A stretch of DNA of 26,870 nucleotides from a virus. Made by a program: the position numbers and the translations under genes. The notes beneath the pieces were generated by a model, which was given only the letters and a program-made list of their open reading frames with translations, was not told the DNA's origin and ran no database searches. Positions 5,578-23,373 of the stretch are shown one piece after another (the stretch's first letter is position 1; each line of letters starts with the position of its first letter). The stretch spans positions 1-26,870 of the IMG/VR virus record IMGVR_UViG_3300006735_000189; one strand, 5' to 3'.

Positions 5578-7215
5578 ATGAGTCAATTAAATTCTCTATT
5601 AGAAAGCTCTACGCAAGGTTGGAAAAACATGCAGAGTGACGCAGCTAGACTAGCGTCAAAATGGGAAAAAACAGGACTTTTAGAAGGAATGGACAGTGAA
5701 ATTCACAAGAATAACATGTCATTAATTCTAGAAAACCAGGCTAAGCAATTAGTTGTTGAGCAATCTCAAACTGATCAGGGTGGTTTCGCTGCTGCTGGTG
5801 GTGCAGGTGCTCAATGGGCAGGTGTTGCTTTACCAATGGTAAGAAAAGTATTTGGTCAGATTGCAGCAAAAGAATTTGTTAGCGTTCAACCAATGAACTT
5901 ACCTTCAGGTCTTGTATTTTTCTTAGATTTCCAATATGGTCAAGCCAAAGAAACTGATTTCGGTGGACCAGGTGCTGTATATTCAAGCCCAGCTTCTATG
6001 TATGGTAATACTAACCCAGGTGCTGATCAAAACCCAACTGATGGTTTATATGGTGCTGGTAGATTTGGATATTCAATTAACCAATTCTCAGCTTCATCTA
6101 CAGCTACATGTGGTGTAACTTCATGGGAATCTGTACATTATGCAGCTGAATTATCAGCTTCTATTTCTGCTGAAAATGTTTATGCTACTGTATCTTTCCC
6201 AGCTGGTGATTTACCAAGAGCTGACAAGAAGGGTGTTAGAGCCTTTACAATTTCAGGTTCTGAAGCTGACGTACTTCCACAATATACTGAATATGATGCA
6301 GGTGCAGATTTAATCTACATGGTAGTAAATTCTGGTTCTGTAGCTGATGGTACTATTGAAGTATTATACAACCAACAACCAACTCCAGATCACAGAGGTG
6401 ATTTCGAAGATGCTGAAGGTGCAGGTTATCCAAATGAACAATCTGCTACTACATTAGCAATTCCATCTATCGATGTGAAAATGAAATCTGAGCCAATTGT
6501 TGCTAAGACTAGAAAGTTAAAAGCACAATGGACACCAGAATTCGCTCAAGATTTAAATGCTTACCAAGCACTAGATGCTGAAGCAGAATTAACTTCTATC
6601 ATGAGTGAGTATATTTCAATGGAAATTGATTTAGAAATTTTAGATATGTTGATCCAAGATGCATCAGCTGCTGATGAGTACTGGAATGCTAAAAACAATT
6701 CAGGACTTAACGCTGATAAATCAGCTTGGTCAGAAGATTTAAATTTCTTCAATTCTCAAGGACAATGGTTCCAAACATTAGGAACTAAAATGCAAAAAGT
6801 ATCAAACAAAATTCACCAGAAAACTCTTAGAGGTGGTGCTAATTTCTGTGTGATATCTCCATCTGTAGCTACTATCATTGAATCAATCCCAGGATTTGCT
6901 TCAAATAGTGATGGTGATGCTTCAAAAGGAAAATTTGCATTCGGTATCCAGAAAATGGGTCAAATGAACAGCAGATATGATGTTTATAAAAACCCATACA
7001 TGACTGAAGGTACAATCCTTATGGGATATAGAGGTAATCAGTTCCTAGAAACAGGTGCTGTATTTGCTCCATATATTCCGTTGATTATGACTCCATTAGT
7101 ATATGATCCAGACACTTTCACACCAAGAAAAGGTCTATTAACGAGATATGCTAAGAAGATGATCAGACCAGAATTCTATGGTAGAGTATTTGTTAGCGGG
7201 TTAAACTTCGTATAA
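5578..7215 (+). CDS. gp23: Major capsid protein (T4 gp23-like)
   Basis: 545 residues (T4 gp23 is 521). It builds the hexameric lattice of the head. Recognisable blocks are LLEGMDSEIHKNN and LILENQAKQLV near residues 34-60, a Gly/Ala-rich loop (residues 68-80), then PMVRKVFGQIAAKEFVSVQP and GLVFFLDFQYG (residues 86-121), which match the gp23 blocks PMVRRVFP...VGVQPM and IFYLRFKY. The C-terminal block RKGLLTRYAKKMIRPEFYG fits the conserved gp23 end. In T4 the first 65 residues are removed by gp21 after an (L/I)-x-E site; candidates here are LLE (34-36) and ILE (50-52), with VVE (59-61) less well matched. The gene has no separate ATATTTATA motif and a strong terminator behind it. No gp24-type vertex paralog follows. 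Confidence 0.96.
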   Translation: MSQLNSLLESSTQGWKNMQSDAARLASKWEKTGLLEGMDSEIHKNNMSLILENQAKQLVVEQSQTDQGGFAAAGGAGAQWAGVALPMVRKVFGQIAAKEFVSVQPMNLPSGLVFFLDFQYGQAKETDFGGPGAVYSSPASMYGNTNPGADQNPTDGLYGAGRFGYSINQFSASSTATCGVTSWESVHYAAELSASISAENVYATVSFPAGDLPRADKKGVRAFTISGSEADVLPQYTEYDAGADLIYMVVNSGSVADGTIEVLYNQQPTPDHRGDFEDAEGAGYPNEQSATTLAIPSIDVKMKSEPIVAKTRKLKAQWTPEFAQDLNAYQALDAEAELTSIMSEYISMEIDLEILDMLIQDASAADEYWNAKNNSGLNADKSAWSEDLNFFNSQGQWFQTLGTKMQKVSNKIHQKTLRGGANFCVISPSVATIIESIPGFASNSDGDASKGKFAFGIQKMGQMNSRYDVYKNPYMTEGTILMGYRGNQFLETGAVFAPYIPLIMTPLVYDPDTFTPRKGLLTRYAKKMIRPEFYGRVFVSGLNFV

Positions 7216-7244
7216 TAAAATAACAACATAATTTTCAAAAAATT

Positions 7245-7274
7245 AGACCTGGCTTTTTAGTCAGGTCTTTTTTT
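7245..7274 (+). terminator. Rho-independent terminator after the major capsid gene
   Basis: AGACCTG (7245-7251) pairs with CAGGTCT (7262-7268) around a 10-base loop, followed by seven T. It lies 30 bases after the capsid stop and is among the clearest terminators in the window. Confidence 0.88.
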
Positions 7275-7293
7275 ATTCTAATTATTTTTTTTC

Positions 7294-7302
7294 ATATTTA
7301 TA
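7294..7302 (+). promoter_or_regulatory. Candidate late promoter, ATATTTATA motif
   Basis: Exact ATATTTATA, 20 bases after the capsid terminator and 11 bases before the next ATG; a natural place to restart transcription. Confidence 0.5.
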
Positions 7303-7313
7303 ACTAAAAGTAT

Positions 7314-7724
7314 ATGGCGGCTGGAAAATATGATTTTACAATAGAACAAGGAGCTACTGTTGATTTTGCTATTCAGTATAAAGACTCAGGCTCCACTCCA
7401 ATAGATTTAACAGGATATCAAGCTAGAATGCAATTTAGACCTACTTTTGCTTCTGATGTTGTTTATTTGACTTTATCTTCAAGTTTAGGACCTTGTGGTA
7501 CTGGTTTGAATTTTAGCGGATCAGGGGGTTTAGACGCTGATTTACCACCTACATCAGGCTCTATTGGTATTTACTTAACAGCTGTTTCTTCATCTCAATT
7601 AACATTTGATGCTGCTTTATATGATTTAGAAATAGCAACAGGTAGTGGTGATTGTGCCACAGTAACAAGACTTTTAGAAGGAGTAGTAAAGTTATCTAAA
7701 AATATAACATTAGGAAGTTTTTAA
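7314..7724 (+). CDS. Small virion-type beta protein (BppU N-terminal-like fold suspected)
   Basis: 136 residues. The pattern (KYDFTIEQGATVDFAIQYKD, then PIDLTGYQARMQFRP, then LYDLEIATGSG and TRLLEGVVKLS) is that of a short all-beta protein found in many phages. It recalls the N-terminal domain of phage baseplate upper proteins, which docks fibers or receptor-binding proteins; I infer this from memory of the strand pattern, not from a search. Two Cys residues (in GPCGTG and GDCATV) could be paired only outside the cell. The gene is the first of a two-gene unit with the large collagen-containing fiber-like gene 12 bases downstream, so it may be that protein's adaptor or a head decoration. Confidence 0.75.
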   Translation: MAAGKYDFTIEQGATVDFAIQYKDSGSTPIDLTGYQARMQFRPTFASDVVYLTLSSSLGPCGTGLNFSGSGGLDADLPPTSGSIGIYLTAVSSSQLTFDAALYDLEIATGSGDCATVTRLLEGVVKLSKNITLGSF

Positions 7725-7736
7725 TAAATCTTTTCA

Positions 7737-10208
7737 ATGAGTGATCTAAATGTAAATCCAAACAGTCCAAATAAAGTAACTGTTCAGAAAGCAGATAATA
7801 TAATTACTGTTAATGATGACTCCAAACATACTAATGTTGATATAACGCAACAAACCACTGAAATTGTTGACATTATCACACAGGGCCCACAAGGTTCTCC
7901 AGGACCCCCAGGACCTCCAGGACCTCCAGGACCAGGCAGTACTCCAACAGGTTCATTATTAACAACAGCATCAGCAGATTTAAATACTTTAACATTTACA
8001 AAAGGAAATGGTGATGAATTTGAAGTAATTATAGATACAGGATCAGCTACAAGTGGTATATTTGAACAAACTAGTTCATTTTTTGCCACTACAAATGATT
8101 TACAAGTTACAGGTTCATTTATAGTGACAAATGGTATAACTGGATCACTATCAGGAGTAGCCTCTACAGCATCCTATGTTGAAAATGCCCAATCTGCATC
8201 TTATGTTGAGTTAGCCCAATCAGCTTCATATGCTAATAACTCTTTAAGTGCTTCATACGCTTTATCAGCTTCATATGCTATATCAGCATCATTTGAAATA
8301 ATTAAAGAATTATCCTCTTCTTATGCTGATACTGCTTCTTATGTTGAAAATGCTCAAACAGCATCCTATGTTGAATTAGCTGAAAGTGCCTCATATGTTA
8401 AATTAGCTGAAAGTGCCTCATATGTTGAAAATGCCCAATCTGCATCTTATGTTGAATTAGCTGAAAGTGCCTCATATGTTGAAGATGCTATTTCAAGCTC
8501 ATATGCTTTAACTGCTTCATACGCTGAAAATACTGATGGAGGTTCAGGTTTTCCTTTTACAGGAGAAGCTGAGATCACTGGTTCATTAATAGTATCAGGA
8601 TCAACACCAATTCCAATTAGTGCTAGTGGTCAATCTATTAATATAGGAAAACCCGCTGATGGAGGATATACAGATGGTTTTTTTGATACATTTACAAGTG
8701 CTACTTCATTAGCAAATGCTATAGATGAAATTAGTGAAGCATTTTTAGATTTAGCCCCTCCTAAAGCAGGAACATTAACAGGAAAAAATTTATTATTAAG
8801 TGGTACCCCTCAATATAGTGGATTACTAGCTTATGGATTAACTTCAGATCATTGGTATCAAAATGGTTATACAGCAGGACAATCAGCTCCATTTATTAAA
8901 GCTGGAAATTTTGATTTAGAGACCCCAGATGAAACAACAATATTTAGAGGTGGTAAAAATAGTGATAGAGTAGCTGGAACATTAGAAGGAGGAGTTACAG
9001 CTAGTGTTAAATTTAGGAATACATCCCCAGTTTTAACAAACCGCCCTTTAACAAATGGTATTGGACCAACACTTCCAATTAATATAACATCAATAGCTCA
9101 ATATGAAACTTTTTGGGTTAAAGTAAACGCTCAAATAGAACAAAATTTAAATTCAAATAATACTGGATCATACCAATATAAAATTCTAGCTGATAATGGA
9201 GCAGGAGAAACCAATGATAAAAACTTATTTTGGGTAGGTGATACAACTCACTATCCTAACCAAACTGTCATACCAGGTACAGTTACAGAAACATCTACTA
9301 CATTTAACTATTTAAGTGGAATACAATATTTAAAAACAGCTACATTTACAATACCTGGAGTAGCAAATAATATGTTTAATCCTGTTTATCAAATAAGTAA
9401 TGTTACTTGGGCTTCTAGTTATTTTAGTAACTCATCAGGAGGTACAACAGGTGGAGATACACCACAATTTAATGATACTTTAAACTTTACAAAAGATTTA
9501 AACCTAACAGCCAACATAAACTCAGGACAATCTTTACCAACAGCTACTTTAACAGTATCTAAACCAGGTAAAAGTAATGTTACATCACCTTCATTTAATA
9601 TATCAACATATAAAATTAACTCATATGTTTCAGCACAGTCTACAAATACTGTAGAAAAATTCTTAGATGAGGATAAAAGAGATACAGGATTTACTCAAGT
9701 TGCTTGGACACCAAGTGCAACATTAACAAATACAAATTTACAAGTTCAAAATGGTAGATTAATAACAGGTAATACTGGTGACTATAGTGGTTTTACAGGA
9801 GCACAATATTTTTATAGAACATTTGCTGGATATAGTAATGGTCAAGCAGGTGGTAATTTTGATTTTAATAATAGTCCTAATGTATTTAGTTCAATTAGTG
9901 CTTGGGGATCAGGAGGTGATTTAGAAATGATTATAGTTAGACCTGAAGATATTACAGCAGGAGTTCCTTCTAAAATATATGATTTTGGTAGAGCTCAAGC
10001 TAATAGTGTAGCAGCAAGTGGAGTAGCAGTACCAGGAGGTACAGCTGATGTTTTTGGTATTAAAGTAGGATCTGTAGGTCCATTAGCAGGAAGTTGGTCA
10101 TTTGGTACTAATACTGTTGTAGGAGCCTCAGGACAATTAATACTATTAATTAAATACAGTGATGTAAATGAAACAAAACAATTAAACCAATTAAGTATAA
10201 CAACTTAA
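7737..10208 (+). CDS. Large fiber-like virion protein with collagen-like stretch and ASY repeats
   Basis: 823 residues. Order of parts: a beta-rich head (1-48) including KVTVQKADNIITVN; six Gly-X-Y triplets (residues 50-67, mostly GPP); a beta/linker segment; a run of about 15 short repeats built on ASYVE-A-S (residues 142-264); an FPFTGEAEITGSL module (272-284) also present twice in the 454-residue fiber gene; then a long beta-rich C-terminal region with many Ser, Thr, Asn and Gly and no Cys. Collagen-like and short-period repeats usually make trimeric fibers. There is no signal peptide or membrane segment. I cannot say whether it is on the head, neck or tail. Placement straight after the capsid and its small partner favours a head fiber or decoration. 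It is the second gene of its unit. Confidence 0.8.
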   Translation: MSDLNVNPNSPNKVTVQKADNIITVNDDSKHTNVDITQQTTEIVDIITQGPQGSPGPPGPPGPPGPGSTPTGSLLTTASADLNTLTFTKGNGDEFEVIIDTGSATSGIFEQTSSFFATTNDLQVTGSFIVTNGITGSLSGVASTASYVENAQSASYVELAQSASYANNSLSASYALSASYAISASFEIIKELSSSYADTASYVENAQTASYVELAESASYVKLAESASYVENAQSASYVELAESASYVEDAISSSYALTASYAENTDGGSGFPFTGEAEITGSLIVSGSTPIPISASGQSINIGKPADGGYTDGFFDTFTSATSLANAIDEISEAFLDLAPPKAGTLTGKNLLLSGTPQYSGLLAYGLTSDHWYQNGYTAGQSAPFIKAGNFDLETPDETTIFRGGKNSDRVAGTLEGGVTASVKFRNTSPVLTNRPLTNGIGPTLPINITSIAQYETFWVKVNAQIEQNLNSNNTGSYQYKILADNGAGETNDKNLFWVGDTTHYPNQTVIPGTVTETSTTFNYLSGIQYLKTATFTIPGVANNMFNPVYQISNVTWASSYFSNSSGGTTGGDTPQFNDTLNFTKDLNLTANINSGQSLPTATLTVSKPGKSNVTSPSFNISTYKINSYVSAQSTNTVEKFLDEDKRDTGFTQVAWTPSATLTNTNLQVQNGRLITGNTGDYSGFTGAQYFYRTFAGYSNGQAGGNFDFNNSPNVFSSISAWGSGGDLEMIIVRPEDITAGVPSKIYDFGRAQANSVAASGVAVPGGTADVFGIKVGSVGPLAGSWSFGTNTVVGASGQLILLIKYSDVNETKQLNQLSITT
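7884..7937 (+). repeat. Collagen-like Gly-X-Y coding stretch
   Basis: Codes six consecutive Gly-X-Y triplets (GPQ, GSP, then GPP three times, then GPG). At DNA level the unit is GGACC(C/T)CCA repeated. It would form a short collagen-type triple helix or a trimerisation stalk. Confidence 0.85.
8160..8528 (+). repeat. Degenerate repeat array coding ASYVE-A-S units
   Basis: About 15 units, mostly 9 residues (ASYVENAQS, ASYVELAES) with shorter ones (ASYALS, ASYAIS) between. Part of it is nearly the same as residues 46-67 of the fiber gene at 18161, including a shared (F/H)EI(I/V)KE(L/I)SSSYADTAS segment. Confidence 0.85.
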
Positions 10209-10209
10209 G

Positions 10210-10218
10210 ATATTTATA
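10210..10218 (+). promoter_or_regulatory. Candidate late promoter, ATATTTATA motif
   Basis: Exact ATATTTATA beginning two bases after the 823-residue gene stop and ending 19 bases before the next ATG. Confidence 0.5.
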
Positions 10219-10237
10219 AAAAGAAAATAAAACCTAT

Positions 10238-11053
10238 ATGGCCCTATCAGATAATACTAAAATAAATAAGTCGTTTAGAGCCCTCATAAACAAGGAATTT
10301 ACAACAAATACCAAGAAATTTTTCGAGGAATTTGGAGCAAATACCATTAATATGAGTATGGGAGAGGTTTGGTCTAGTACTGTATCCTCAACTCCAGCAA
10401 CAGCAGTTACAGATGGTGTAGCTGAGTTATATACTGAATTTACTTTATCACCTTTAGTTGGATTCACAACATCAGTATTCTATTTTGCTAGTGGGTCTGG
10501 TTTTACCCCAGGTACAACTATTAATAGAGGTACTATAGATGAAAATTTACTTCAAAGAAATTTTATAAGTGACAAATACGGAGGTGGATATACAGCAATT
10601 CTAAAAGATGCTAATGGTGCTGTAGTACCTGCTACAGATAATATTGATTGGATATTTGATTATCAAACAGGAATATTATCAATTCAAGACCCAGGAGGAG
10701 GATATACAACTCCATATAAATTAACAGTATATCAATATGTTGGTAATTTTGGAGGTGGGTCAGGTAATCCTGATACTCCAAATGATTCAATACAATTTAA
10801 TAGTGCTGGAAGTTTTGGGGGTAGCGCTAGATTAATATTTAAAGAACCATCAGGTTTAACTCAATTAAGTGGTAGTTTACAAATAACAGGTTCATCTACA
10901 TCTGATTTTTTCTTAGTAAAAAGTGCTAGTTTAGAATCATTCAAAATTAATAATGATGGTGTTGTTGTATTAGGTGACTTTTCATCAACCCCAACAGTTC
11001 AAAATGGAGGAATAATGTATTCCTCATCAAATTTGTGGATAGGATCACAATAG
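10238..11053 (+). CDS. Virion structural protein, fiber-associated, unknown
   Basis: 271 residues. The first 40 residues are helical and basic (NTKINKSFRALINKEFTTNT, then KKFFEEFGAN). The middle part carries a pattern I know from other marine phage structural proteins: TINRGTIDENLLQRNFISDKY, then NIDWIFDYQTGILSI and YKLTVYQYVG, probably a compact beta domain. After a Gly/Asn linker, the last 90 residues resemble fiber-tip beta units (QFNSAGSFGGSARLIF, LQITGSSTSDFFLVKS, then an ending IMYSSSNLWIGS). There is no signal peptide. It has its own candidate promoter and is followed by another, so it may be transcribed alone. Role in the particle is inferred from composition and neighbours only. Confidence 0.75.
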   Translation: MALSDNTKINKSFRALINKEFTTNTKKFFEEFGANTINMSMGEVWSSTVSSTPATAVTDGVAELYTEFTLSPLVGFTTSVFYFASGSGFTPGTTINRGTIDENLLQRNFISDKYGGGYTAILKDANGAVVPATDNIDWIFDYQTGILSIQDPGGGYTTPYKLTVYQYVGNFGGGSGNPDTPNDSIQFNSAGSFGGSARLIFKEPSGLTQLSGSLQITGSSTSDFFLVKSASLESFKINNDGVVVLGDFSSTPTVQNGGIMYSSSNLWIGSQ

Positions 11054-11067
11054 AAAAAAAAAGTAAC

Positions 11068-11076
11068 ATATTTATA
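11068..11076 (+). promoter_or_regulatory. Candidate late promoter, ATATTTATA motif
   Basis: Exact ATATTTATA, ending 24 bases before the ATG of the 378-residue fiber gene. Confidence 0.5.
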
Positions 11077-11100
11077 ACAAAATATTAAAATTAAACAAAA

Positions 11101-12237
11101 ATGGCAAATTGGAAAAAAGTTCTCGTCTCAGGAAGTCAAATTGAGGTTGCAGGTATAACAGGATCAAATATTGGAACCGCTCCAGGTTCAGTAGGAACAT
11201 CTAAAGTATTAATTCAAGGTTCAGATGGAGAATTCTATGTAACAGGTTCAGGAGCCATTGGTGGTAGTGGAACAACAACAGGAACATTAACAAGAGGTAA
11301 TGGTTTAAGTGGTAATGACTTTGATGGAAGTACAGGTACTACATTTGCTGTTTCTTCTTCAGATTCACAAGCTACCATAACTATTGCTGATGTTGGTATT
11401 AAAGTAACACCTTTAGGTATTGACACTGCTCAATTAGCAGCTGATGCTGTAACAACAGTAAAAATTACTGATTTGAATGTTACTCATGATAAATTAGCAT
11501 TAGATTCAGTTGAAACAGAAAATATTAAAGATGAAGCGGTAACAACAGCTAAAATTGCTACTTCTTTAGGTACACTTGCTGATAACAAATTTACAGGCTC
11601 ATTTACAGGATCATTTGATGGTGATGGATCAAGTTTAACAGGAGTAACAGGTGCTTCAACAACAGCTGCTTTAACTCAAGGAACTGCCCCTTCAGGCATA
11701 TCAAATTTCTCATTTAATGGTAGTTCAGCAAAAACAGTATCAATTTCTGGAGCTGCTGCCTTAACAACAGAAAAATTAGTTAAATGGAGTGGAGCTGCAT
11801 TTGTAGATTCTAAAATTCAAGAAGGTACTAATACTATTACTGTTGGTACAGTCACTGATACAACAACATTCAATGGTAATGTTGTGGTAGCAGGTACTGC
11901 TTCTTTCCAAAATGAAGAAACACTACTAATTAAAGATAGATATATTCTATTAAATTCAGGATCAACAGCAGGTGATCAAGGTGGTCTTATTGTACAAACA
12001 GCAGGTACACAGAATAAGGGCCAATTATTTGGTTATCAAGACGCTAGTAGTAGATGGGCAGTGACATCATCTTTTAATGCAGGTGCTACAGGAGATTTTA
12101 CAGCAGCTGGATTTATGGGATTAACATCAGCTTCAACAGCACTAGATCCAAATGTGGCAAATGTTACTTCAGCAGAAATGAAACAAAAAGGTAATATATT
12201 TGTTGATTCAGGTGATGGAATTTGGATTTATGCTTAA
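11101..12237 (+). CDS. Fiber-like virion protein with NWKKV-VSGS N-terminus
   Basis: 378 residues. It begins MANWKKVLVSGSQIEV, and the 454-residue gene at 12770 begins MPNWKKVIVSGSDAIL, so the two share an N-terminal attachment unit. Residues 108-153 hold a fiber-type repeat of the form LA-DAVTT-KI-D--VT--KLA (for instance AADAVTTVKI and DEAVTTAKI). Residues 164-183 (FTGSFTGSFDGDGSSLTGVT) and the later LLIKDRYILLNSGS...GGLIVQ stretch are modules I recognise from marine phage tail-fiber-type proteins. The C-terminus (KQKGNIFVDSGDGIWIYA) looks like a small beta cap. I expect a trimeric extended fiber; which part of the virion carries it is not shown. It is flanked by a candidate promoter and a hairpin with a T-run. 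Confidence 0.8.
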   Translation: MANWKKVLVSGSQIEVAGITGSNIGTAPGSVGTSKVLIQGSDGEFYVTGSGAIGGSGTTTGTLTRGNGLSGNDFDGSTGTTFAVSSSDSQATITIADVGIKVTPLGIDTAQLAADAVTTVKITDLNVTHDKLALDSVETENIKDEAVTTAKIATSLGTLADNKFTGSFTGSFDGDGSSLTGVTGASTTAALTQGTAPSGISNFSFNGSSAKTVSISGAAALTTEKLVKWSGAAFVDSKIQEGTNTITVGTVTDTTTFNGNVVVAGTASFQNEETLLIKDRYILLNSGSTAGDQGGLIVQTAGTQNKGQLFGYQDASSRWAVTSSFNAGATGDFTAAGFMGLTSASTALDPNVANVTSAEMKQKGNIFVDSGDGIWIYA

Positions 12238-12240
12238 AAT

Positions 12241-12263
12241 AAATTTGGATTAGCAAATTTTTT
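12241..12263 (+). terminator. Weak rho-independent terminator after the 378-residue fiber gene
   Basis: AAATTTG (12241-12247) pairs with CAAATTT (12254-12260) around GATTAG and runs into six T. It begins three bases after the stop codon. The stem is A/T-rich, so efficiency is uncertain. Confidence 0.55.
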
Positions 12264-12268
12264 GTATT

Positions 12269-12277
12269 ATATTTATT
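12269..12277 (+). promoter_or_regulatory. Candidate late promoter, ATATTTATT variant
   Basis: ATATTTATT (last base differs from the usual A), directly after the preceding terminator and 34 bases before the ATG of the 64-residue gene. Confidence 0.4.
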
Positions 12278-12311
12278 GTCAATAGTTTTAAAATTAAAAA
12301 AGTTTTTAAGT

Positions 12312-12506
12312 ATGGGGCTTAGAGCAGGAAAAAAATCCTCTTCAAATGTCGTACAACCAAAACAAAACAATCAATTAACATCTGATGAAATTGAAGTTTT
12401 AATGAAAATGGTTCGTGACAGTAGTTTTCAAGGTAAAGATGTAGAATCTTTATACAACTTAGTTATTAAACTTCAAAATCAATATAAAAGTTTACAAAAT
12501 CAATAG
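12312..12506 (+). CDS. Small helical protein, unknown
   Basis: 64 residues: a basic, disordered N-terminus (GLRAGKKSSSNVVQPKQNN) followed by one or two helices (TSDEIEVLMKMVRDSSFQGK, then VESLYNLVIKLQNQYKSLQN) with heptad spacing, so probably a small oligomer. I chose the ATG at 12312; an upstream in-frame TTG at 12276 overlaps the candidate promoter. The next gene begins two bases after the stop, so the two small genes are co-transcribed. I do not recognise the family beyond recalling similar short phage proteins near structural genes. Confidence 0.65.
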   Translation: MGLRAGKKSSSNVVQPKQNNQLTSDEIEVLMKMVRDSSFQGKDVESLYNLVIKLQNQYKSLQNQ

Positions 12507-12508
12507 TT

Positions 12509-12691
12509 ATGTTTAATATTACAGAATTAACTGTTTTAAGACAAGGTCTAGAAACAGTAACAATAAAAGGATCAGAAGCTAAGCTATTAGCAGCATTACA
12601 AGAAAAAGTAGAAACACATATCCATAATATCCAACAAGGTCCTCCAAAAAAAGAACAAAAAACTTCAAAAGAACGTAAATCCTCTAAATAG
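12509..12691 (+). CDS. Small conserved phage protein, unknown
   Basis: 60 residues. The pattern ITELTVLRQGLETVTIKGSE followed by AKLLAALQEKVETHIHNI is a helix-strand-helix of a type that recurs in marine phage genomes, with no known function. The last 16 residues are Lys/Pro/Ser-rich and probably disordered. It starts two bases after the stop of the preceding small gene. The stop codon lies inside a small hairpin (CCTCT/AGAGG, 12681-12694). Confidence 0.65.
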   Translation: MFNITELTVLRQGLETVTIKGSEAKLLAALQEKVETHIHNIQQGPPKKEQKTSKERKSSK

Positions 12692-12694
12692 AGG
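12681..12694 (+). other. Small hairpin across the stop codon of the 60-residue gene
   Basis: CCTCT (12681-12685) pairs with AGAGG (12690-12694) around AAAT. It has no T-run behind it, so it is not a standard terminator; it may protect or mark the end of the message. Confidence 0.35.
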
Positions 12695-12697
12695 TTG

Positions 12698-12706
12698 ATA
12701 TTTATT
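12698..12706 (+). promoter_or_regulatory. Candidate late promoter, ATATTTATT variant
   Basis: ATATTTATT, seven bases after the stop of the 60-residue gene and 63 bases before the next ATG; the leader that follows can fold. Confidence 0.4.
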
Positions 12707-12711
12707 ATAAA

Positions 12712-12762
12712 TTGTTGGCCCTCGGGAAGTGGGCTCGTATTGAGTAACCAACCACAATAAAA
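12712..12762 (+). promoter_or_regulatory. Structured leader upstream of the 454-residue fiber gene
   Basis: GTTG (12714-12717) can pair with CAAC (12749-12752), enclosing a GCCC/GGGC helix (12718-12721 with 12731-12734). This is the most G+C-rich intergenic stretch in the window. It is followed by CAATAAAAAAGTATTATG, close to AAATAAAAGTATT downstream of the hairpin before the gene at 20497. Function unknown; a role in message stability or translation is inferred. Confidence 0.4.
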
Positions 12763-12769
12763 AAGTATT

Positions 12770-14134
12770 ATGCCAAATTGGAAAAAAGTTATTGTATCTG
12801 GCAGTGATGCGATATTATCTAATATTACTGCCTCAAATATAAGTGCAAGTGGAGATATATCTTCTTTAAATTTCACAGCATCTGGAGATATTTTAATAGA
12901 AGGTGGTGGGTTAGAAATTAAAAATGATGGAGCTCAATCATATGCAAGATTTTATTGTGAATCAAGTAATCAACATTATACAGAAGTAAAAGCTCAACCT
13001 CATTCCTTATTTAGTGGTAATCCAATAATGTTATTACCCGCCTATGATTTTGATTTTGCAAAACCTCATTTTAAAGCTGATATCACAGGATCAAATATAA
13101 GTGCAAGCGGTCATATCTCAGCTTCTAATTTTATAGGGGATGGGTCAGGTTTAACAAATTTACCTCCTGCTACAGCATTTCCATTCACAGGAGATGCTAA
13201 AATAACAGGTTCATTAACAGTAAGTGGATCAGGTAACTCATCTATATTCATAGTAGATGGTAGATCATTTTTTAAAGACCAAGTAACATTTGGTAATTCA
13301 ACAGCTGATTCAGTATCATTTACATCTAGAATATCAAGTAATTTTTTACCTACAGGATTAAATAGTGAGAAATTAGGAACCCAATCTGAACCTTGGTTTG
13401 GAGCTACTATAACTAGTATAACATCTTCAAATATAAGCTCAAGTGGTGATTTATTTTTTAGTGCTTCTAATAATAGTGATACAGGTTTTAAAACTTTAGT
13501 TATTGATACTTCAACAGGTCAAGTTTACCATACTGGTTCATATCAAGGTGGAGGAGGATCAGGCACATCTTTAACAGTTACAGAACAAGATGGTGTTCCA
13601 TCAGTTTCTAATGTTAATACTATTAAATTTAATAATGGAACAGTTACTGATAATGGTAGTGGAGTTGTGACAGTTAATAATTCTGGGGGTACAGGAGGAA
13701 CTTTCCCCTTTACTGGAGATGCTGTAATAACCGGATCATTAACAATATCTGAATCAGGAGCTAACACATATGATACTTTAAAAGTTAATAATGCTTTTTA
13801 TGGTACTGAGGTAAACTCATCAACAGCAGCAAATACATTACAATATTACTTTAGAATACCAACAGGTTCATATAATGGAGCATTTTTTGATTATGTAGCT
13901 ACTAGTGGATCAGGTGACTTTTTTACAGGTAGGGCAGGTACAGTACAATCTATATGGGAAATAGCCTCAGAAACACCTAGGGTAGCTTATAATGATTTTT
14001 CAACACGGGGTATTGGAGGCAATAGCACAAAGAATTTAAAATTTAAAGTAGATATAAAAAATGGGAATGCTCGTTTAGTGTCTAAAGATACAACAGGACA
14101 ATACCAAATTAAAGTTATAGCAAGAGGAATTTAA
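12770..14134 (+). CDS. Fiber-like virion protein, modular, NWKKV-VSGS N-terminus
   Basis: 454 residues. The N-terminus MPNWKKVIVSGSDAIL matches that of the fiber gene at 11101. Then come units of the form ITASNISASGDI (residues 20-30, 106-118 and 217-228), a GDGSGLTNLPPA linker (124-134), two FPFTGDA-ITGSL modules (137-149 and 312-324), and a TEQDGVPSVSNVNTIKF segment (271-287) typical of marine phage fiber linkers. The C-terminal 120 residues are a beta-rich tip (AFFDYVATSGSGDFFTGR, QYQIKVIARGI) with no recognisable enzyme motif. It is ten bases upstream of the CUB-containing gene, so the two are probably one unit. I infer a trimeric fiber or decoration; host or particle location is unknown. 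Confidence 0.8.
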   Translation: MPNWKKVIVSGSDAILSNITASNISASGDISSLNFTASGDILIEGGGLEIKNDGAQSYARFYCESSNQHYTEVKAQPHSLFSGNPIMLLPAYDFDFAKPHFKADITGSNISASGHISASNFIGDGSGLTNLPPATAFPFTGDAKITGSLTVSGSGNSSIFIVDGRSFFKDQVTFGNSTADSVSFTSRISSNFLPTGLNSEKLGTQSEPWFGATITSITSSNISSSGDLFFSASNNSDTGFKTLVIDTSTGQVYHTGSYQGGGGSGTSLTVTEQDGVPSVSNVNTIKFNNGTVTDNGSGVVTVNNSGGTGGTFPFTGDAVITGSLTISESGANTYDTLKVNNAFYGTEVNSSTAANTLQYYFRIPTGSYNGAFFDYVATSGSGDFFTGRAGTVQSIWEIASETPRVAYNDFSTRGIGGNSTKNLKFKVDIKNGNARLVSKDTTGQYQIKVIARGI

Positions 14135-14144
14135 AATAAAACAA

Positions 14145-15257
14145 ATGGCAACAGAAGATAATGAAAAATTAGTAGCTAGAGGTGGAATGATTGTCACAGA
14201 TGAAAGTGGTAATACGTTTGAGATTACCCCTTTTGGAGTTGTACAAGATTATACTTTTTTAGCTACTACTCAAGGACAAAAAGAAGAAATAACAGGTAGT
14301 AGTATAATAGGTTATGGACCATCAGCTAGATATATAGCTTCTGAATCCATTGTATGCGGGCAACCCTTAGCTAGAAAAGTTGAGGCCTCTACTGGAAAAA
14401 CATATGCTGTTTTAGCTACAACATCTTCAGCTACTAATGAATTTCTTGGTATATCATTAGAAACAGCCTCTATAGATGACTCTGTATTAGTATTAACATC
14501 AGGAAATACAACAGTGGCATTTAATACTGGATCAACAGCCCCAAGTCTTGTAAAATTAGATGATGATACTACAGAATCAGAACTTAATTTAGCAGCTGGA
14601 GCTACAGTATTATTTACAGATTCTGGAGGTACTGGCAGTGATTATGCAGCTGGAGAAACTTATGAGATATTATTTGATGCCTTAGCAGGAAATACAGTTG
14701 AGTTGTCTTTTGATTCTATGTCTTTTGAACATTCAACATATAGCATGTATGATAGATTAGGTATAACAACTTCAAATAATGGGATAAGCTTTGCTAATGC
14801 TTCTTTCACTTGGATGAATGCCTCCTCAAACTCAAGCCCAGCTTGGAGTTCTACATTTAATGGTAGTGGGACTTGGAATAGTGCTAATGCATCTCCTGGT
14901 TATATTTTACCAAGAGATTTAACTCGAGCTAACACTATGCCGTTAGGAGGATACTCAGGAAGTAACTTCTTCTATGATACTGGAGCTAGATATGTTAAAT
15001 TTTATTTTTCAAGTGATGGATCATCTCAAAGACCAGGATGGCAAATTCAAGTAAGAAGTTCTAATACATCAACTACACCTTTAGCTAATATCGGGGCTAA
15101 ATTATATGTGGGAGAATTTAAAGGAACAAATTTACCAGAAGGAACAGCATTAAATGAGAATAAATTTGGACCTGAAGCACCATTTGGAACTATATTAGAT
15201 GCTGATGCTTCATCTGGTAGTGTATTTGCTAATATTGATTTCAACCCCCAAGCTTAA
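14145..15257 (+). CDS. Virion protein with N-terminal DUF2190-like part and C-terminal CUB-like domain
   Basis: 370 residues. Residues 10-130 (SIVCGQPLARKVEASTGKTY, then FLGISLETASIDDSVLVL) have the look of small capsid-decoration proteins of the DUF2190 type. Residues 155-304 fit a CUB domain as found in Bacteroidetes and animal extracellular proteins: LFTDSGGTGSDYAAGETYEI at the start, VELSFDSMSFEHSTYSMYDR in the middle, and YVKFYFSSDGSSQRPGWQIQ at the end, matching the CUB pattern of DSGG, a beta strand with F, a D-L-I loop and FxSDGS...GW. CUB domains often bind calcium, proteins or sugars. The only Cys (residue 71) is outside it, so there are no disulfides. A surface-exposed adhesion or decoration role is inferred. 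No signal peptide, as expected for a virion protein. Confidence 0.7.
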   Translation: MATEDNEKLVARGGMIVTDESGNTFEITPFGVVQDYTFLATTQGQKEEITGSSIIGYGPSARYIASESIVCGQPLARKVEASTGKTYAVLATTSSATNEFLGISLETASIDDSVLVLTSGNTTVAFNTGSTAPSLVKLDDDTTESELNLAAGATVLFTDSGGTGSDYAAGETYEILFDALAGNTVELSFDSMSFEHSTYSMYDRLGITTSNNGISFANASFTWMNASSNSSPAWSSTFNGSGTWNSANASPGYILPRDLTRANTMPLGGYSGSNFFYDTGARYVKFYFSSDGSSQRPGWQIQVRSSNTSTTPLANIGAKLYVGEFKGTNLPEGTALNENKFGPEAPFGTILDADASSGSVFANIDFNPQA

Positions 15258-15259
15258 AT

Positions 15260-15277
15260 AATAAATTTACATTTATT
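15260..15277 (+). other. A/T-only hairpin just after a stop codon
   Basis: AATAAAT (15260-15266) pairs with ATTTATT (15271-15277) around TTAC, starting two bases after the stop. It lacks a T-run and is weak; it may mark a 3' end ahead of the next candidate promoter. Confidence 0.35.
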
Positions 15278-15287
15278 AAATAGTATA

Positions 15288-15296
15288 ATATTTATA
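15288..15296 (+). promoter_or_regulatory. Candidate late promoter, ATATTTATA motif, before the neck operon
   Basis: Exact ATATTTATA ending 10 bases before the gp13-like ATG. The next two genes lack their own copy, so it would drive all three. Confidence 0.5.
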
Positions 15297-15306
15297 ATAA
15301 AACACT

Positions 15307-16488
15307 ATGAATATTCCTATTTGGACGGGTACGTCAAACTTCGCTGCAGGCCAAACTCCATTTGGTTTTTATGATAATCAAACAGATTTTCAAAATGACG
15401 CTGATAAAGTAGCTGATTTTTGTGCTAGAAGGTTAGGATATCCTTTAACTGATATAGAACTTCAATCAGGTTCATTTTATACAGCTTTTGAAGAAGCTAT
15501 AACAACTTATGGAAATGAATTATACGCTTATAAAGTAAGAGAAAATTATCTATCTTTAGGGGGATCAAGTACTATAATAGAATCTAATGACCAATTAATA
15601 GTTCCTAATATGGCAGGTATAGTTAGAATATCAGATCAATATGGAACTGAAGCAGGAGTAGGAGGTGATATAACATGGTATTCAGGCTCTATAGAATTAA
15701 AAGCAGGTCAACAAACATATGATATGAATGCTTGGGCCCAGGCTAGTGCTAGTATTACACCAGATGATAATATAGAAATAAAAAGAGTATTTTATGAGGC
15801 ACCACCGGCAATAACAAGATATTTTGATCCTTTTGCAGGTACTGGTACAGGAATGATTGATATGATGGATTCATTTGGTTGGGGTAGTTATTCACCTGCA
15901 ATTAATTTTTTAATGATGCCCTTAAACTATGACATGCAAGTAATGCAAGCTATAGAATTAAATGATCAAATTAGAAGATCAAATTATTCATTTGAATTAA
16001 TAAATAATAACTTAAAAATATTCCCAATTCCTCAAGGTAGTGAATTTTATGGTAACAATTTTAAAGGAGGACATTGTGGTTATATGAGTTTTGAATATAT
16101 AAAAGACTCAGAAAGACAAAATCCATATAGGAATGGTATAAATAAAGTAACAAATGTATCACAAGTTCCATTCACAAACCCAAATTATAATGAAATAAAT
16201 TCAATAGGTAGACAATGGATATTTGAATATGCTTTAGCTATATGTAAAGAAATGTTAGGGTATATAAGAGGAAAATATTCTACAGTTCCAATACCAGATG
16301 CTGAAGTAACATTAAATCAAGCTGATTTATTATCCTCAGCTACAGAAACTAAAAATGCTTTAATAGAAAGATTAAGAACATATTTTGATGATACTTCTAG
16401 AGATAAATTATTAGAAAGAAGATCATTAGAAGGAGATTATTTAGAAAAAGAACTAAATAAAGTTCCTTACACAATTTTTATAGGATAA
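15307..16488 (+). CDS. gp13: Neck / head-completion protein (T4 gp13-like)
   Basis: 393 residues (T4 gp13 is about 309). With gp14 it closes the filled head and forms the tail-docking site. The N-terminal block KVADFCARRLGYPLTDIEL followed by YTAFEEAITTYGNELYAYKV fits the gp13 beginning (a short helix, RRLG-P--D-EL, then an acidic helix). The C-terminal block ALAICKEMLGYIRGKYSTVP (residues 309-328), then DAEVTLNQADLLS, matches the block ALAKEMLG-IRGKY--IP...LN--DLL that I recall from marine T4-like gp13 proteins. The middle contains an insertion rich in Met, Gly and Asp (GTGTGMIDMMDSFGWGSYSP). The operon order gp13-gp14-gp15-like supports the call. The next ATG is two bases after the stop codon. 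Confidence 0.8.
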   Translation: MNIPIWTGTSNFAAGQTPFGFYDNQTDFQNDADKVADFCARRLGYPLTDIELQSGSFYTAFEEAITTYGNELYAYKVRENYLSLGGSSTIIESNDQLIVPNMAGIVRISDQYGTEAGVGGDITWYSGSIELKAGQQTYDMNAWAQASASITPDDNIEIKRVFYEAPPAITRYFDPFAGTGTGMIDMMDSFGWGSYSPAINFLMMPLNYDMQVMQAIELNDQIRRSNYSFELINNNLKIFPIPQGSEFYGNNFKGGHCGYMSFEYIKDSERQNPYRNGINKVTNVSQVPFTNPNYNEINSIGRQWIFEYALAICKEMLGYIRGKYSTVPIPDAEVTLNQADLLSSATETKNALIERLRTYFDDTSRDKLLERRSLEGDYLEKELNKVPYTIFIG

Positions 16489-18160: not shown

Positions 18161-19708
18161 ATGGCAGATAAAGTTAGATTTGTAGATAGTAGTATTACAA
18201 TAAGCCCAGGTGGAAATACTGGTGGAGGGGGTGGATCATCTGAATCATCTAGTTATGCCTTAACATCTTCATACTCTGATTTTTCAATATCAGCTAGTTA
18301 TGCTTTATCAGCTTCTCATGAAATTGTAAAAGAAATATCATCCTCATATGCTGATACTGCTTCTTCCGCTGATAATTTTACAATAAGAAATAATTTAACA
18401 GTTAAAGAAAAATCTGAATTTATTGGTAGTATTACCGCTTCAAATATAAGTTCTAGTAATAATATATTTGCAAAGCAGTTATATGTAGAAGATAAATTAG
18501 CAGTAGACTATAATAATGGAATTAATATAGGGAATGTAACTGACCCTATTAATTTATTAAATAATGTAACAGCATCAGGAAATATTAATGTTAGTGGAGA
18601 TATAACTTCTTCAAAAATAACAGCCACATCAGGATCTTTTAGTTATGTAGAAGGTAATAGTCCTTTAACAATAGATACAGGTGATGATAGTTTAACTATA
18701 GTATCTACAAATTTTGGAGTTTCATCAACAGGTGAAGTTTCATCAGGAATAGGAGGTTCAGATGGTATATTAACAACATCAATAACAGCCTCAAGTAATA
18801 TTAGTTCAAGTAAAAATATTATAGCTAAAAAATTTCAAGGTATATTTGAAGGAGCAATAAGTAGTTCAACACAAATATCCTCAGACATATCTGGAGCTTT
18901 TGGCTTAGTTAGTTCTAGTTTTGATGAAAGAATAAAATTAGATAGTGGCTCTTTTTCAAATAGAATAACAAGTTTAAAAAATGATAGTGGATCCTTTTCA
19001 ACTAGAATAACAGGTTTAAAATCAGACAGTGGTTCATTCTCAACTAGAGTTACAAATCTAAAAAATGATAGTGGTTCTTTTTCTACAAGAATAACAGACC
19101 TAAAATCAGATAGTGGTTCATTTAGTACAAGAATTACTGGTTTAAAATCAGATAGTGGTTCTTTTTCCACAAGAATAACAGGCCTAAAATCAGACAGTGG
19201 TTCTTTTTCCACAAGAATAACAGGCCTAAAATCAGACAGTGGTTCTTTTTCAACAAGAGTAACAAGTAATGAGACTAATATAAGTACTAATGATGGATTA
19301 ATAATAGATTTACAATCTAAAACAGGAAGTTATGCTACAACAGGTTCTAATGATTTTAAAAATAATCAAATACTAACAGGATCATTTACAATAATAGGTT
19401 CATTTTTAAACACAGGTACAGTTTCAATAAATAATGGAAATTCACCCTACACAATAACAGGAACAGAGCAATTTGTATTAATTAATCCTTCAAGTGGTAA
19501 TGTTACAATAAATTTACCTGATGTTACTACATATCCTGGTAGACAAATATTTTTTAAATTAACACAGGATGCCGCTGCTAATTTAGTAACTTTAGAATGT
19601 CAAGGATCAGATACTATAGATGGGAATTCTAATTATGAAGACTTAGATGATCAATTTGAATCTATCTCAATTGTTAGTGATGGTAATACAGGTTGGTTTA
19701 TTTTTTAA
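18161..19708 (+). CDS. Fiber-like virion protein with ASY repeats and eight 14-residue tandem repeats
   Basis: 515 residues. Order of parts: a short head (1-20), a Gly linker, ASY-type repeats (31-69) related to those in the 823-residue gene, then units like ITASNISSSNNIFAKQ and ITASSNISSSKNIIAKKF that also occur in the 454-residue fiber. Residues 261-372 are eight 14-residue repeats of the form DSGSFSTRITGLKS, probably a trimeric coiled-coil or beta-helical shaft. The C-terminal 110 residues (TITGTEQFVLINPSSGNVTI, then NLPDVTTYPGRQIFFKL, ending DGNTGWFIF) form a beta tip of the kind seen at the end of phage fibers and may be the receptor-touching end. It lies straight after the neck operon, so a neck or tail fiber is plausible. 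It is alone between two candidate promoters. Confidence 0.82.
   Translation: MADKVRFVDSSITISPGGNTGGGGGSSESSSYALTSSYSDFSISASYALSASHEIVKEISSSYADTASSADNFTIRNNLTVKEKSEFIGSITASNISSSNNIFAKQLYVEDKLAVDYNNGINIGNVTDPINLLNNVTASGNINVSGDITSSKITATSGSFSYVEGNSPLTIDTGDDSLTIVSTNFGVSSTGEVSSGIGGSDGILTTSITASSNISSSKNIIAKKFQGIFEGAISSSTQISSDISGAFGLVSSSFDERIKLDSGSFSNRITSLKNDSGSFSTRITGLKSDSGSFSTRVTNLKNDSGSFSTRITDLKSDSGSFSTRITGLKSDSGSFSTRITGLKSDSGSFSTRITGLKSDSGSFSTRVTSNETNISTNDGLIIDLQSKTGSYATTGSNDFKNNQILTGSFTIIGSFLNTGTVSINNGNSPYTITGTEQFVLINPSSGNVTINLPDVTTYPGRQIFFKLTQDAAANLVTLECQGSDTIDGNSNYEDLDDQFESISIVSDGNTGWFIF
18251..18367 (+). repeat. Repeat stretch coding ASY units, related to 8160-8528
   Basis: Codes SYALTSSYSDFSISASYALS followed by ASHEIVKEISSSYADTAS, nearly the same order as in the 823-residue gene. 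This is an internal homology of about 100 bases between two structural genes. Confidence 0.75.
18941..19276 (+). repeat. Eight tandem 42-bp repeats (14-residue units) in a fiber gene
   Basis: Eight in-register copies of a 42-bp unit coding DSGSFSTRITGLKS with small changes. The later copies around 19150-19240 are almost identical in DNA, including silent positions (AGAATAACAGGCCTAAAA recurs), which indicates recent duplication. The last copy decays into NET. Copy number should be prone to change. Confidence 0.93.
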
Positions 19709-20496: not shown

Positions 20497-23373
20497 ATGA
20501 GTAAATATGATATATTTAAAAATAAACTTTATGTTATTGGAGAAATAGTAGATGGTTCACCATACTACCCATCCTCTTACAACACAAAGATCACCCAACA
20601 AGATTGGGAAAAAATCAAAGATGCACATGCAGCATTTTTAGCAGACGCTGAAGCTACTAACGCATCTTTTGAGACTCAATTAGATGAGGCTCAAGCTTCA
20701 CAAGCAGCGGAAACGCAAGCTTTGGAGTTAGCAACAGCAGAAAAAGCTCAAAAAGAAACAGATAAATCTGATAAAGAAGTAGCTAAAGCTGAAGCTATAA
20801 CAAATGCTGATAAAGCTGAACAAGCTAAAAGAGTGGCTGGAGAATCAATCGCAGCTAAAAAAGATGAAGTATTATCTATTGAATCTCAACTTGAAAGTCC
20901 AGAGTTAACTGATCAAGAAAGACAGACTTTACAGACACAGTTAGCAACAGTGAACAGTGATATAGCATCACATGAAGCTGCATTAGCTGAATCTCATGCT
21001 GAAATGACGGAATACAAAGCTATAGCAGATCAACTTACAAAGGATATTGAAGATTTATCCGCACGTATAGCTGAATTAACTGATATTATTTCTGAAAAAG
21101 AAGCTATTATTGCTGAAAAAACAGAAATTATAGAAAAAGTTGAAAGTGAGAAAGAAGCCTTAAATTCAAGAATTGATAATGCAGGTGAACAATATGATAT
21201 ATTATCATCTAAAATTAATAATAGTGAACTAGAAGTAGTTGCTCCAGCTGATCAACCAGTGGTTAGAATCATTAATTTATCTCAAATGCAAGAAGTAAAA
21301 AGAAAACTTGAGCAATTGAAAAAAGATAAAGTAGATGCAGAAGCGAGTAGAACTGAACTTAAAACAGCTATAGAAGCTGCTACAGCTGCTGGTGATCCAA
21401 CTGATGAGTTAAGTAGAGAACTAGATAGAGTAACGGCTCTTATTGAGGAATTAGGTGATGCTGTTCCTTTTATAGAAGATCAAATCAAAGGAATGGAAGA
21501 TACATCTTCTATTGAAGTAAGAACTATAGATGCTGAAGGATATGCTTATTCTGTAGATACAGATGGTGACGGCTCTCCAGATTTTGCTGATGATGATATT
21601 GATGGTGATACTGTACTTAATGTAGATGATGCATTCCCATATAACCCAGATGAATCAGTAGATACAGATGGTGATGGTATTGGAAACGAAGCTGATACTG
21701 ACGATGATGGTGATGGTGTATCTGATGCTAATGAAATTACTTTAGGAAGTGATCCATTAGATGAAGGTGATACAGGAGAATTAACTACATTGATGAAATT
21801 AGGTCAACAAGTTGGTGCTTATTTAACAGATGATTTCAAAGATATAAAAGGAGAATCTGATGAGCACTTTACTGATTTAAATGCAGAATTAGTATCTACA
21901 GCTGAAAGTAAATTAGCAGAAATAAAAGAATCAATAAAAACATTAAAAACAACTCAAGCTGAAGAAATATCAGAATTAGGTGTAAATAATGTTGTTGATA
22001 TGTTTAAGGTATTTGATGGTGTTTATCAAGAAGGTGAAGGAGATGAAACTCTACCAGCTGCTATCAGAAATTTAGGCTTAAAAGAAGATCAACAACAACA
22101 ATTAATGGATTTAATTGTAACTTTATCTGATACTCAAAAGACAGATCATGATGAATTCGCTACAAAATTAGGTGATTGGTTAGACTTAGTTGGAACTTTA
22201 ACATCTGATGAATTAGCTTCATCTGAATATGCAAGCTTATATGCTGATAAATTAGAAGAATTGGTATCAAAAGCAGTTGAGGAAAGTAAAAAGGCTAAAG
22301 AAGGATCAAAAGCACATGCTGAGAATACAATTAAAACTATGCAAAAAGCTACCGATATGAGAGGTATGGAAACAGCAGAAGGTGTAGCTTGGTATTCTGA
22401 TATGGAAGATGGCTCATCATATGTATTAACCAATGATGCTTATGTAGCAGGTAAAATGGCTTTAAAAGCAGAGGTTGATGCTGGAAATATATCATTAGAC
22501 CAATGGGCTATAGAATCATCTAAATTATTACTTAGACATGTAGGTAAAAATAATAGTGATAAAAATGTAGCTAATGACAATGAAAGAAGATTAGGTATCT
22601 ACCAATCAATTAATTTCTATGAATTAGAAACTAGAGCTGAAAAAGTTAGAAGCGCATCTCAAAAATTAGTAGACTTACAAAAAAGAACAAACTCAGCTAA
22701 AGAGGATAGTTCAACTGATAGAGAAAGCTATGTAAAGGCGTTAGCCAAAATGACACAAAGTGCTGATGCTATTATAGCTCAATTTGAAGCAGATAAAGCA
22801 GCTTATAATCAATCAAAAGCTGAAGCTACAGCCGCTTTAGATGCTAGAGAACAAGAAAAAGCAGCAGCATATGATGCTTATAAAGCTGAAACAGTAGAAG
22901 AGCAAATTGCTATTAAATTTCAATTATATTTGGATGCACATGCAAAAGCTATGGAGGCCAGAATTCAATTATCAGGTATTCAATATAGATTTGCAGCTGT
23001 AAGTTTGATTTTCAACAGAGAATCAGTCAGACTACAAAAAGCAATGCCAGTACTACAAGATGCTATAGGTTCATTAGCTAATACTATAGTAGTATTAGAT
23101 ACTATGTTAAGTACTATTGCAGCAGAACTACAATCTACTACTGATGATATAGATCCAATAAATGGACAAGTTGGTTTAATTTTAGACGCTTTATCTAAAA
23201 TGGATGAAGATTGGACTACAGGTAATGGATATAGAGCAAATGATGAATGGTCAGCAGGTGATAAAGAGTATAATGCTGTTTATTCTTTTGCTAGAAATGA
23301 AACTGGTGAATTAATTGATCCTAGCCATATAGAAAAAGTAATAAAAGCTTACACAGCTCATAATGCAGTGTAG
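20497..23373 (+). CDS. Giant coiled-coil protein with central TSP3 calcium-binding block, unknown role
   Basis: 958 residues, unrecognised as a whole. Residues 1-45 include a small Tyr/Pro-rich part (YVIGEIVDGSPYYPSSYN); residues 50-235 are long Ala/Glu/Lys coiled coil; 260-330 more coiled coil; residues 353-422 are a thrombospondin type-3-like block with repeated D-D-DG-D loops (VDTDGDGSPD, VDTDGDGIGN, DTDDDGDGVSDANEITLGSD) expected to bind several calcium ions; 430-958 is again mostly helical, including a Lys/Ala-rich helix near 760-800. No signal peptide or membrane segment. TSP3 blocks are common in marine bacterial surface proteins and rare, to my knowledge, in phage. It heads a three-gene cassette with a capsid-type leader and a terminator. 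Alternatives include a tape-measure-like protein, an internal head protein or a fiber shaft; the sequence does not decide. Confidence 0.75.
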   Translation: MSKYDIFKNKLYVIGEIVDGSPYYPSSYNTKITQQDWEKIKDAHAAFLADAEATNASFETQLDEAQASQAAETQALELATAEKAQKETDKSDKEVAKAEAITNADKAEQAKRVAGESIAAKKDEVLSIESQLESPELTDQERQTLQTQLATVNSDIASHEAALAESHAEMTEYKAIADQLTKDIEDLSARIAELTDIISEKEAIIAEKTEIIEKVESEKEALNSRIDNAGEQYDILSSKINNSELEVVAPADQPVVRIINLSQMQEVKRKLEQLKKDKVDAEASRTELKTAIEAATAAGDPTDELSRELDRVTALIEELGDAVPFIEDQIKGMEDTSSIEVRTIDAEGYAYSVDTDGDGSPDFADDDIDGDTVLNVDDAFPYNPDESVDTDGDGIGNEADTDDDGDGVSDANEITLGSDPLDEGDTGELTTLMKLGQQVGAYLTDDFKDIKGESDEHFTDLNAELVSTAESKLAEIKESIKTLKTTQAEEISELGVNNVVDMFKVFDGVYQEGEGDETLPAAIRNLGLKEDQQQQLMDLIVTLSDTQKTDHDEFATKLGDWLDLVGTLTSDELASSEYASLYADKLEELVSKAVEESKKAKEGSKAHAENTIKTMQKATDMRGMETAEGVAWYSDMEDGSSYVLTNDAYVAGKMALKAEVDAGNISLDQWAIESSKLLLRHVGKNNSDKNVANDNERRLGIYQSINFYELETRAEKVRSASQKLVDLQKRTNSAKEDSSTDRESYVKALAKMTQSADAIIAQFEADKAAYNQSKAEATAALDAREQEKAAAYDAYKAETVEEQIAIKFQLYLDAHAKAMEARIQLSGIQYRFAAVSLIFNRESVRLQKAMPVLQDAIGSLANTIVVLDTMLSTIAAELQSTTDDIDPINGQVGLILDALSKMDEDWTTGNGYRANDEWSAGDKEYNAVYSFARNETGELIDPSHIEKVIKAYTAHNAV
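21553..21762 (+). other. Thrombospondin type-3-like calcium-binding block (protein domain)
   Basis: Codes residues 353-422 of the 958-residue protein. Three Asp-rich loops of D-x-D-x-D-G-x type end in VSDANEITLGSDPLD, the usual close of bacterial TSP3 arrays. Confidence 0.85.

Follow-up and report, generated by a model that had tools for sequence, protein, structure and literature searches.

The gene and its place in the structural block

The window, that is the whole stretch of DNA that was analysed, is a 26.9-kb virus record (26,870 nucleotides), and the capsid, CUB and adaptor genes described below lie on its plus strand. Its structural genes begin with portal and protease; a scaffold-like gene, the major capsid protein, fibre-like genes, the CUB gene and the head-tail adaptor follow in this order. 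The major capsid protein (5578..7215) is gp23-like (phrog_138, E 4.4e-67) and shows 58.6% identity to that of Flavobacterium phage immuto. Directly downstream of the CUB gene, a gp13-like head completion or head-tail adaptor protein is encoded (15307..16488; phrog_211 Ad2, E 1.3e-11), with 44% identity to the "putative head completion protein" of immuto. The CUB gene itself (14145..15257) belongs to the head/neck structural block; the phage is marine and T4-like, and is related to immuto. Judged from the capsid and adaptor proteins, its closest isolates are Flavobacterium phage immuto and Microcystis phage Mel-JY01, so that the host of the window phage is likely to be a member of the Bacteroidota, with marine Flavobacteriia as the likely group.

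CUB domains are binding modules that are best known from extracellular proteins of animals. The gene at 14145..15257 codes for a protein of 370 residues which, from the ORF and its relatives, is predicted to be located at the virion surface. With the help of these relatives, its architecture can be described as an N-terminal arm followed by a split Phage_cement_2-like (beta-tulip) module into which a CUB domain is inserted. The arm (residues 1-55; 14145..14309) is modelled with a pLDDT below 50 over residues 1-51 and is a possible docking arm for the capsid or a fibre. Near copies of the protein, with 87-100% identity, occur in three viral contigs.

The protein encoded at 7737-10208 carries a short collagen-like run, GPQGSPGPPGPPGPPGPG, which is free of lysine, together with SASYVELAESASYVENAQ repeats. 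A fibre-like protein (18161-19708) contains many near-identical copies of the 14-residue unit DSGSFSTRITGLKS, and this repeat region is not the same in the related phage L003. The 958-residue coiled-coil protein at 20497-23373 is rich in Asp over one stretch (DTDGDGSPDFADDDIDGD...DTDGDGIGNEADTDDDGDGVSD), whose sequence is reminiscent of thrombospondin type 3 calcium repeats, a feature unusual for a phage structural block.

In the phage group of the window, the interval between the gp23 and gp13 genes (7216-15306 in the window; loci L011-L094) is a variable cargo slot. Its length ranges from 83 to 8451 bases among the 45 loci that have both the capsid and the adaptor gene, and it is empty in five of them. 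Other contents of the slot are PhoH, a 141-residue protein, and proteins which by eye are collagen-like, LamG-like, C1q-like or BNR-like. Among these 45 loci, the CUB protein is found only in the window, whose near copies fall outside this count as the capsid gene is absent from the stretch fetched. A set of 80 relatives, found via the neighbouring gp13 gene, yielded no additional copy of the CUB protein.

The CUB domain and its calcium-type site

A CUB-like domain had been proposed at 14610-15056 in a first-pass annotation made from the DNA letters. These limits are almost exact, the best limits being residues ~150-306 (14592..15062). All motifs on which the proposal was based are present at the places quoted: the DSGG opening within FTDSGG (residues 157-162), VELSFDSMSFE (185-195), the YDR loop within MYDRLG (201-206) and the closing FYFSSDGSSQRPGW (286-299). 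The degenerate DNA pattern F.D.GG....Y...E...[hydrophobic] has a single match in the window and no match in 100 shuffled sequences, and the motif set is more than chance.

Taken by itself, the window protein is above no Pfam cut-off. It reaches an E-value of 0.05-0.2 against the Pfam CUB family (PF00431), which is under the cut-off, and single-sequence searches (PHROGs, NCBIfam, phages by tblastn, PDB by phmmer) returned nothing informative, the phmmer matches being antibody noise. AlphaFold, when supplied with only three near-identical sequences, gave a pLDDT of 33. Because the lone sequence is sub-threshold and this prediction failed, relatives were needed, and the case for a CUB domain rests on the family profile, on relatives above the cut-off and on the fold.

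When PDB sequences were searched with the family profile, matches were obtained to ADGRG6 (E 3.6e-6), MASP-2 (3.5e-4), cubilin (2.3e-3) and MASP-1 (2.5e-3), with MASP-3, C1r, MAp19 and PCPE-1 among the further ones; the top 14 are all CUB proteins. N-terminal and C-terminal strands are both aligned to ADGRG6, and in order. Two relatives, L148 (30.1 bits) and L142 (23.3 bits), are above the Pfam CUB cut-off of 21.4 bits, and a CUB match at E<=1 is found in 16 of the 22 family members. An AlphaFold model computed from 27 viral sequences, with an alignment free of any cellular CUB, has a pLDDT of ~85-92 over most of residues 150-305 (lower around 241-250 and 261-270). In a Foldseek comparison of this model with the PDB, ranks 1-46 are occupied by CUB-containing proteins with single-domain TM-scores of 0.65-0.72 (e.g. 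C1r CUB2, TM 0.72, and MASP-1 CUB2, TM 0.70, probability 1.00). Thus, profile search and structure comparison, which were among the checks suggested along with the initial proposal, both found CUB, and residues ~150-306 adopt a CUB fold. That they form another beta-sandwich (Ig, MAM/laminin-like or jelly-roll) with a chance likeness in motifs, as the weak antibody matches by phmmer and a 21-residue piece of the CUB motif in a MAM-like bacterial protein (L167) might suggest, is highly improbable and largely refuted, the family profile, the Pfam cut-offs and Foldseek all indicating CUB.

The closing motif of the family is not unique to CUB domains: a MAG protein (L167:1788-1850) carries RYIRFYFASDLSVTYPGWYIDDISV within a MAM/laminin-like domain.

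The calcium site in CUB1 of C1s is formed by Glu45, Tyr52, Asp53, Asp98 and Ser100 (PMC4222235). In the window protein, Glu45 corresponds to E195 (14727..14729), conserved in all 22 family members; Tyr52-Asp53 to Y202-D203 (14748..14753; Y in 22, D in 21 of 22); and Asp98-x-Ser100 to D291-G292-S293 (15015..15023; D in 22, S in 18 of 22). Local spacing is equal in C1s and in the phage family (E+7 Y, E+8 D, D+2 S). In the family alignment, the residues of the calcium-binding-CUB (cbCUB) site are conserved and almost invariant, and the site is a putative Ca2+ site. The likeness to the calcium-binding CUBs (C1r, C1s, MASP-1/2, ADGRG6; PF00431) extends from this E / YD / D.S signature and its equal spacing to the strand order and the fold (TM up to 0.72). 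The phage domain differs from them in having ~155 rather than ~110 residues, owing to a long insert that separates YDR from the final strands, in being housed in a phage cement module, and in its cysteines. The canonical cysteines (two disulfides, typical but not universal) are missing: 21 of the 22 members are cysteine-free, and L153 has a single one. With fold and profile both those of a CUB, we treat this loss as a variant feature. It suits a protein that would be assembled in the bacterial cytoplasm, and the missing disulfides leave room for a changed function.

The cement module and the distribution among viruses

The CUB domain is flanked by the two halves of a cement/tulip-like module. 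The first half (residues ~58-137, GQP...FLGI...VLTSGNTT; 14316..14555) was assigned by alignment to relatives that match PF09956. The second half (residues ~312-366; 15078..15242), which has low confidence in the AlphaFold model of the window protein, was assigned by alignment to relatives and by a second PF09956 segment that follows the CUB in L148. Phage_cement_2 (PF09956, formerly DUF2190) matches 20 of the 23 family members (best E 5.9e-8); the other three are presumably the window protein and two near copies. The window protein, itself without a PF09956 match, is linked by 29-38% identity to members that have one, and the CUB flanks can be aligned with one another across the tailed-phage relatives. 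Along the L148 protein, the order is PF09956 16-83, CUB 4-64, CUB 71-109 and PF09956 58-101. Because PF09956 segments lie on either side of the CUB in L148, we conclude from sequence comparison that the CUB is nested in a split cement-like module. The DUF2190-like module named in the first-pass annotation is therefore real, but the CUB is not attached to it as had been stated there; it is inserted between its halves. Other Phage_cement_2 or beta-tulip decoration proteins are similar in that both module halves are recognised in relatives and in their head gene neighbourhood, while interruption by an entire CUB domain sets the window protein apart. A search of the PDB with the tulip profile gave only a weak match, to a capsid stabilisation protein (E 0.55), and the N-terminal module shows a weak similarity to gp82, a neck-fibre protein of Anabaena phage A-1(L).

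A pattern scan of viral contigs matched 29 stretches, mostly by chance, but in several of them the domain is complete, FxDSGG through GWD. A profile scan gave 42 loci (41 with a later, fuller profile), which represent ~25 distinct domains. A species-genome collection scanned with the domain gave nothing in one scan and, in another, a single 21-residue match in a MAM-like protein, which was rejected as unrelated. Among 50,697 phage records queried with the window protein, the CUB domain and two relatives, no match was found at the sensitivity tested.

The cassette occurs in T4-like phages (the window, L002, L003) and in a group whose terminase belongs to phrog_6681 (L162). In L129-type phages, the CUB gene is situated in the head block, between the head maturation protease and the virion structural protein/portal genes. 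The cassette is also present in L157 and L161, where the CUB gene is near tail or fibre genes, not capsid genes. In four contigs (L114, L151, L153, L165), the genes of the capsid region are not phage-like, two large proteins are common, and the CUB domain is housed in other, larger proteins. We take the resemblance of these contigs to polinton-like viruses as a lead. An A32-type packaging ATPase is above the cut-off in L165 and below it, with 17.9 bits, in L149. Double-jelly-roll capsid models gave no confirmation on the polinton-like contigs, and the double-jelly-roll model matched no control either.

The pair of large structural proteins common to the four contigs (A12, A13) adjoins the CUB-bearing large proteins and has no match in Pfam or PDB; these are likely the capsid genes of a polinton-like virus. 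In L149, which has basic proteins and GIY-YIG-like genes and is not phage-like in appearance, a 1023-residue protein (L149:3526-6594) consists of YSSDGINWTG repeats (BNR-like by eye) and tail-fibre-like parts, followed by the cement-CUB cassette.

The CUB module is spread over unrelated viruses. It recurs in ~25 further virus sequences from the environment, which suggests that it serves phages as an exchangeable binding module on their surface. Resolution of the family tree is too weak to place the phage copies relative to the polinton-like ones. It is conceivable, at somewhat less than even chances, that this cysteine-free calcium-type CUB is a virus-specific subfamily, a plug-in adhesion cassette that various capsid or fibre scaffolds present and that circulates between tailed phages on the one hand and polinton-like viruses or related DNA viruses of eukaryote type on the other.

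Proposed role on the virion

We consider it rather likely that the window protein is a virion-surface cement or decoration protein of a T4-like phage, in which a beta-tulip-type module carries a calcium-type CUB in one loop for multivalent weak adhesion. The tulip-type module would form a trimer that fixes the protein on the capsid (or on a fibre), with the CUB domain, set in one loop, facing outward. Bound Ca2+ would present E195, Y202, D203, D291 and S293 as in C1s, C1r and MASP, and this site may hold basic or sugar ligands weakly. With many copies per virion, adhesion would be multivalent and of low affinity, and it might hold the phage close to host surfaces, to polysaccharide or to particles ahead of specific tail attachment. 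The function put forward initially, a weak and broad affinity for polysaccharides or particles, is plausible, if putative.

On capsids, decoration proteins of the beta-tulip type form trimers, and host attachment involves several decoration proteins, e.g. Hoc (PMC7602432). As a working idea, the window protein and T4 Hoc would both display adhesion domains on the surface of a T4-like head; Hoc is a row of Ig domains, not a CUB, and has no homology to the window protein. A distal module may also not bind, as the carbohydrate-binding module of the A-1(L) neck fibres failed to bind the host (PMC10966104).

The protein might instead belong to a fibre of the neck or tail, as a bead or at its tip, with the CUB displayed at or along that fibre, which we regard as possible yet distinctly less probable than capsid decoration. 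In phage A-1(L), gp82 trimers build a bead-chain neck fibre (PMC10966104), and it is gp82 that the N-terminal module weakly resembles. By our reading of the sequences, small tulip-like modules are a further similarity to this fibre (gp82/gp81/gp80), which is without a CUB domain and belongs to another phage group. The position of the CUB gene directly upstream of a neck gene and downstream of fibre-like genes points in the same direction, as does the fibre-like L149 protein, which is terminated by the cassette. On the other hand, PF09956 is a capsid cement family that covers most relatives, L129-type phages have the CUB gene in the head block, and in the window it lies in a head context, between the gp23-like capsid and the gp13-like adaptor genes. 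The PF09956 matches and the L129 gene order speak for capsid cement rather than for a fibre of the neck or tail, which is nevertheless a real rival.

It is less likely still that the insert has a purely structural role and, as a spacer or a contact between protomers that is stabilised by Ca2+, would toughen the shell without any external ligand. CUB modules are indeed stabilised by calcium (PMC4222235) and capsids are reinforced by cement proteins (PMC7602432), but near relatives are without the CUB protein in the slot, several intervals between capsid and gp13 genes being almost empty or holding unrelated proteins. Moreover, the conserved residues include ligand contacts of C1s, beyond the metal ligands. 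We consider it very improbable that the CUB docks a collagen-like fibre of its own virion (the gene at 7737), in the manner of the C1s and MASP CUBs, which hold collagen-like stems via Ca2+ and a lysine (PMC4222235); the run in that gene is collagen-like but offers no lysine, and the co-occurrence of such a gene with a CUB domain is known from the window alone.

Adhesion modules known from phage surfaces have Ig-like and C-type-lectin-like folds. No report of CUB domains in phages was found in the open-access literature. CUB domains and phage cement proteins are each known, and as far as our searches of open-access papers show, their combination, with a cysteine-free CUB of the calcium type inside the cement module, is unreported. 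With a CUB that has an intact calcium site and lies within a cement protein, phage surfaces would gain an adhesion module of another kind, and its calcium-type site gives a defined three-acid site that is open to mutation and testing. That the CUB is common to tailed phages and polinton-like contigs suggests that very distant viruses which share marine waters exchange surface modules.
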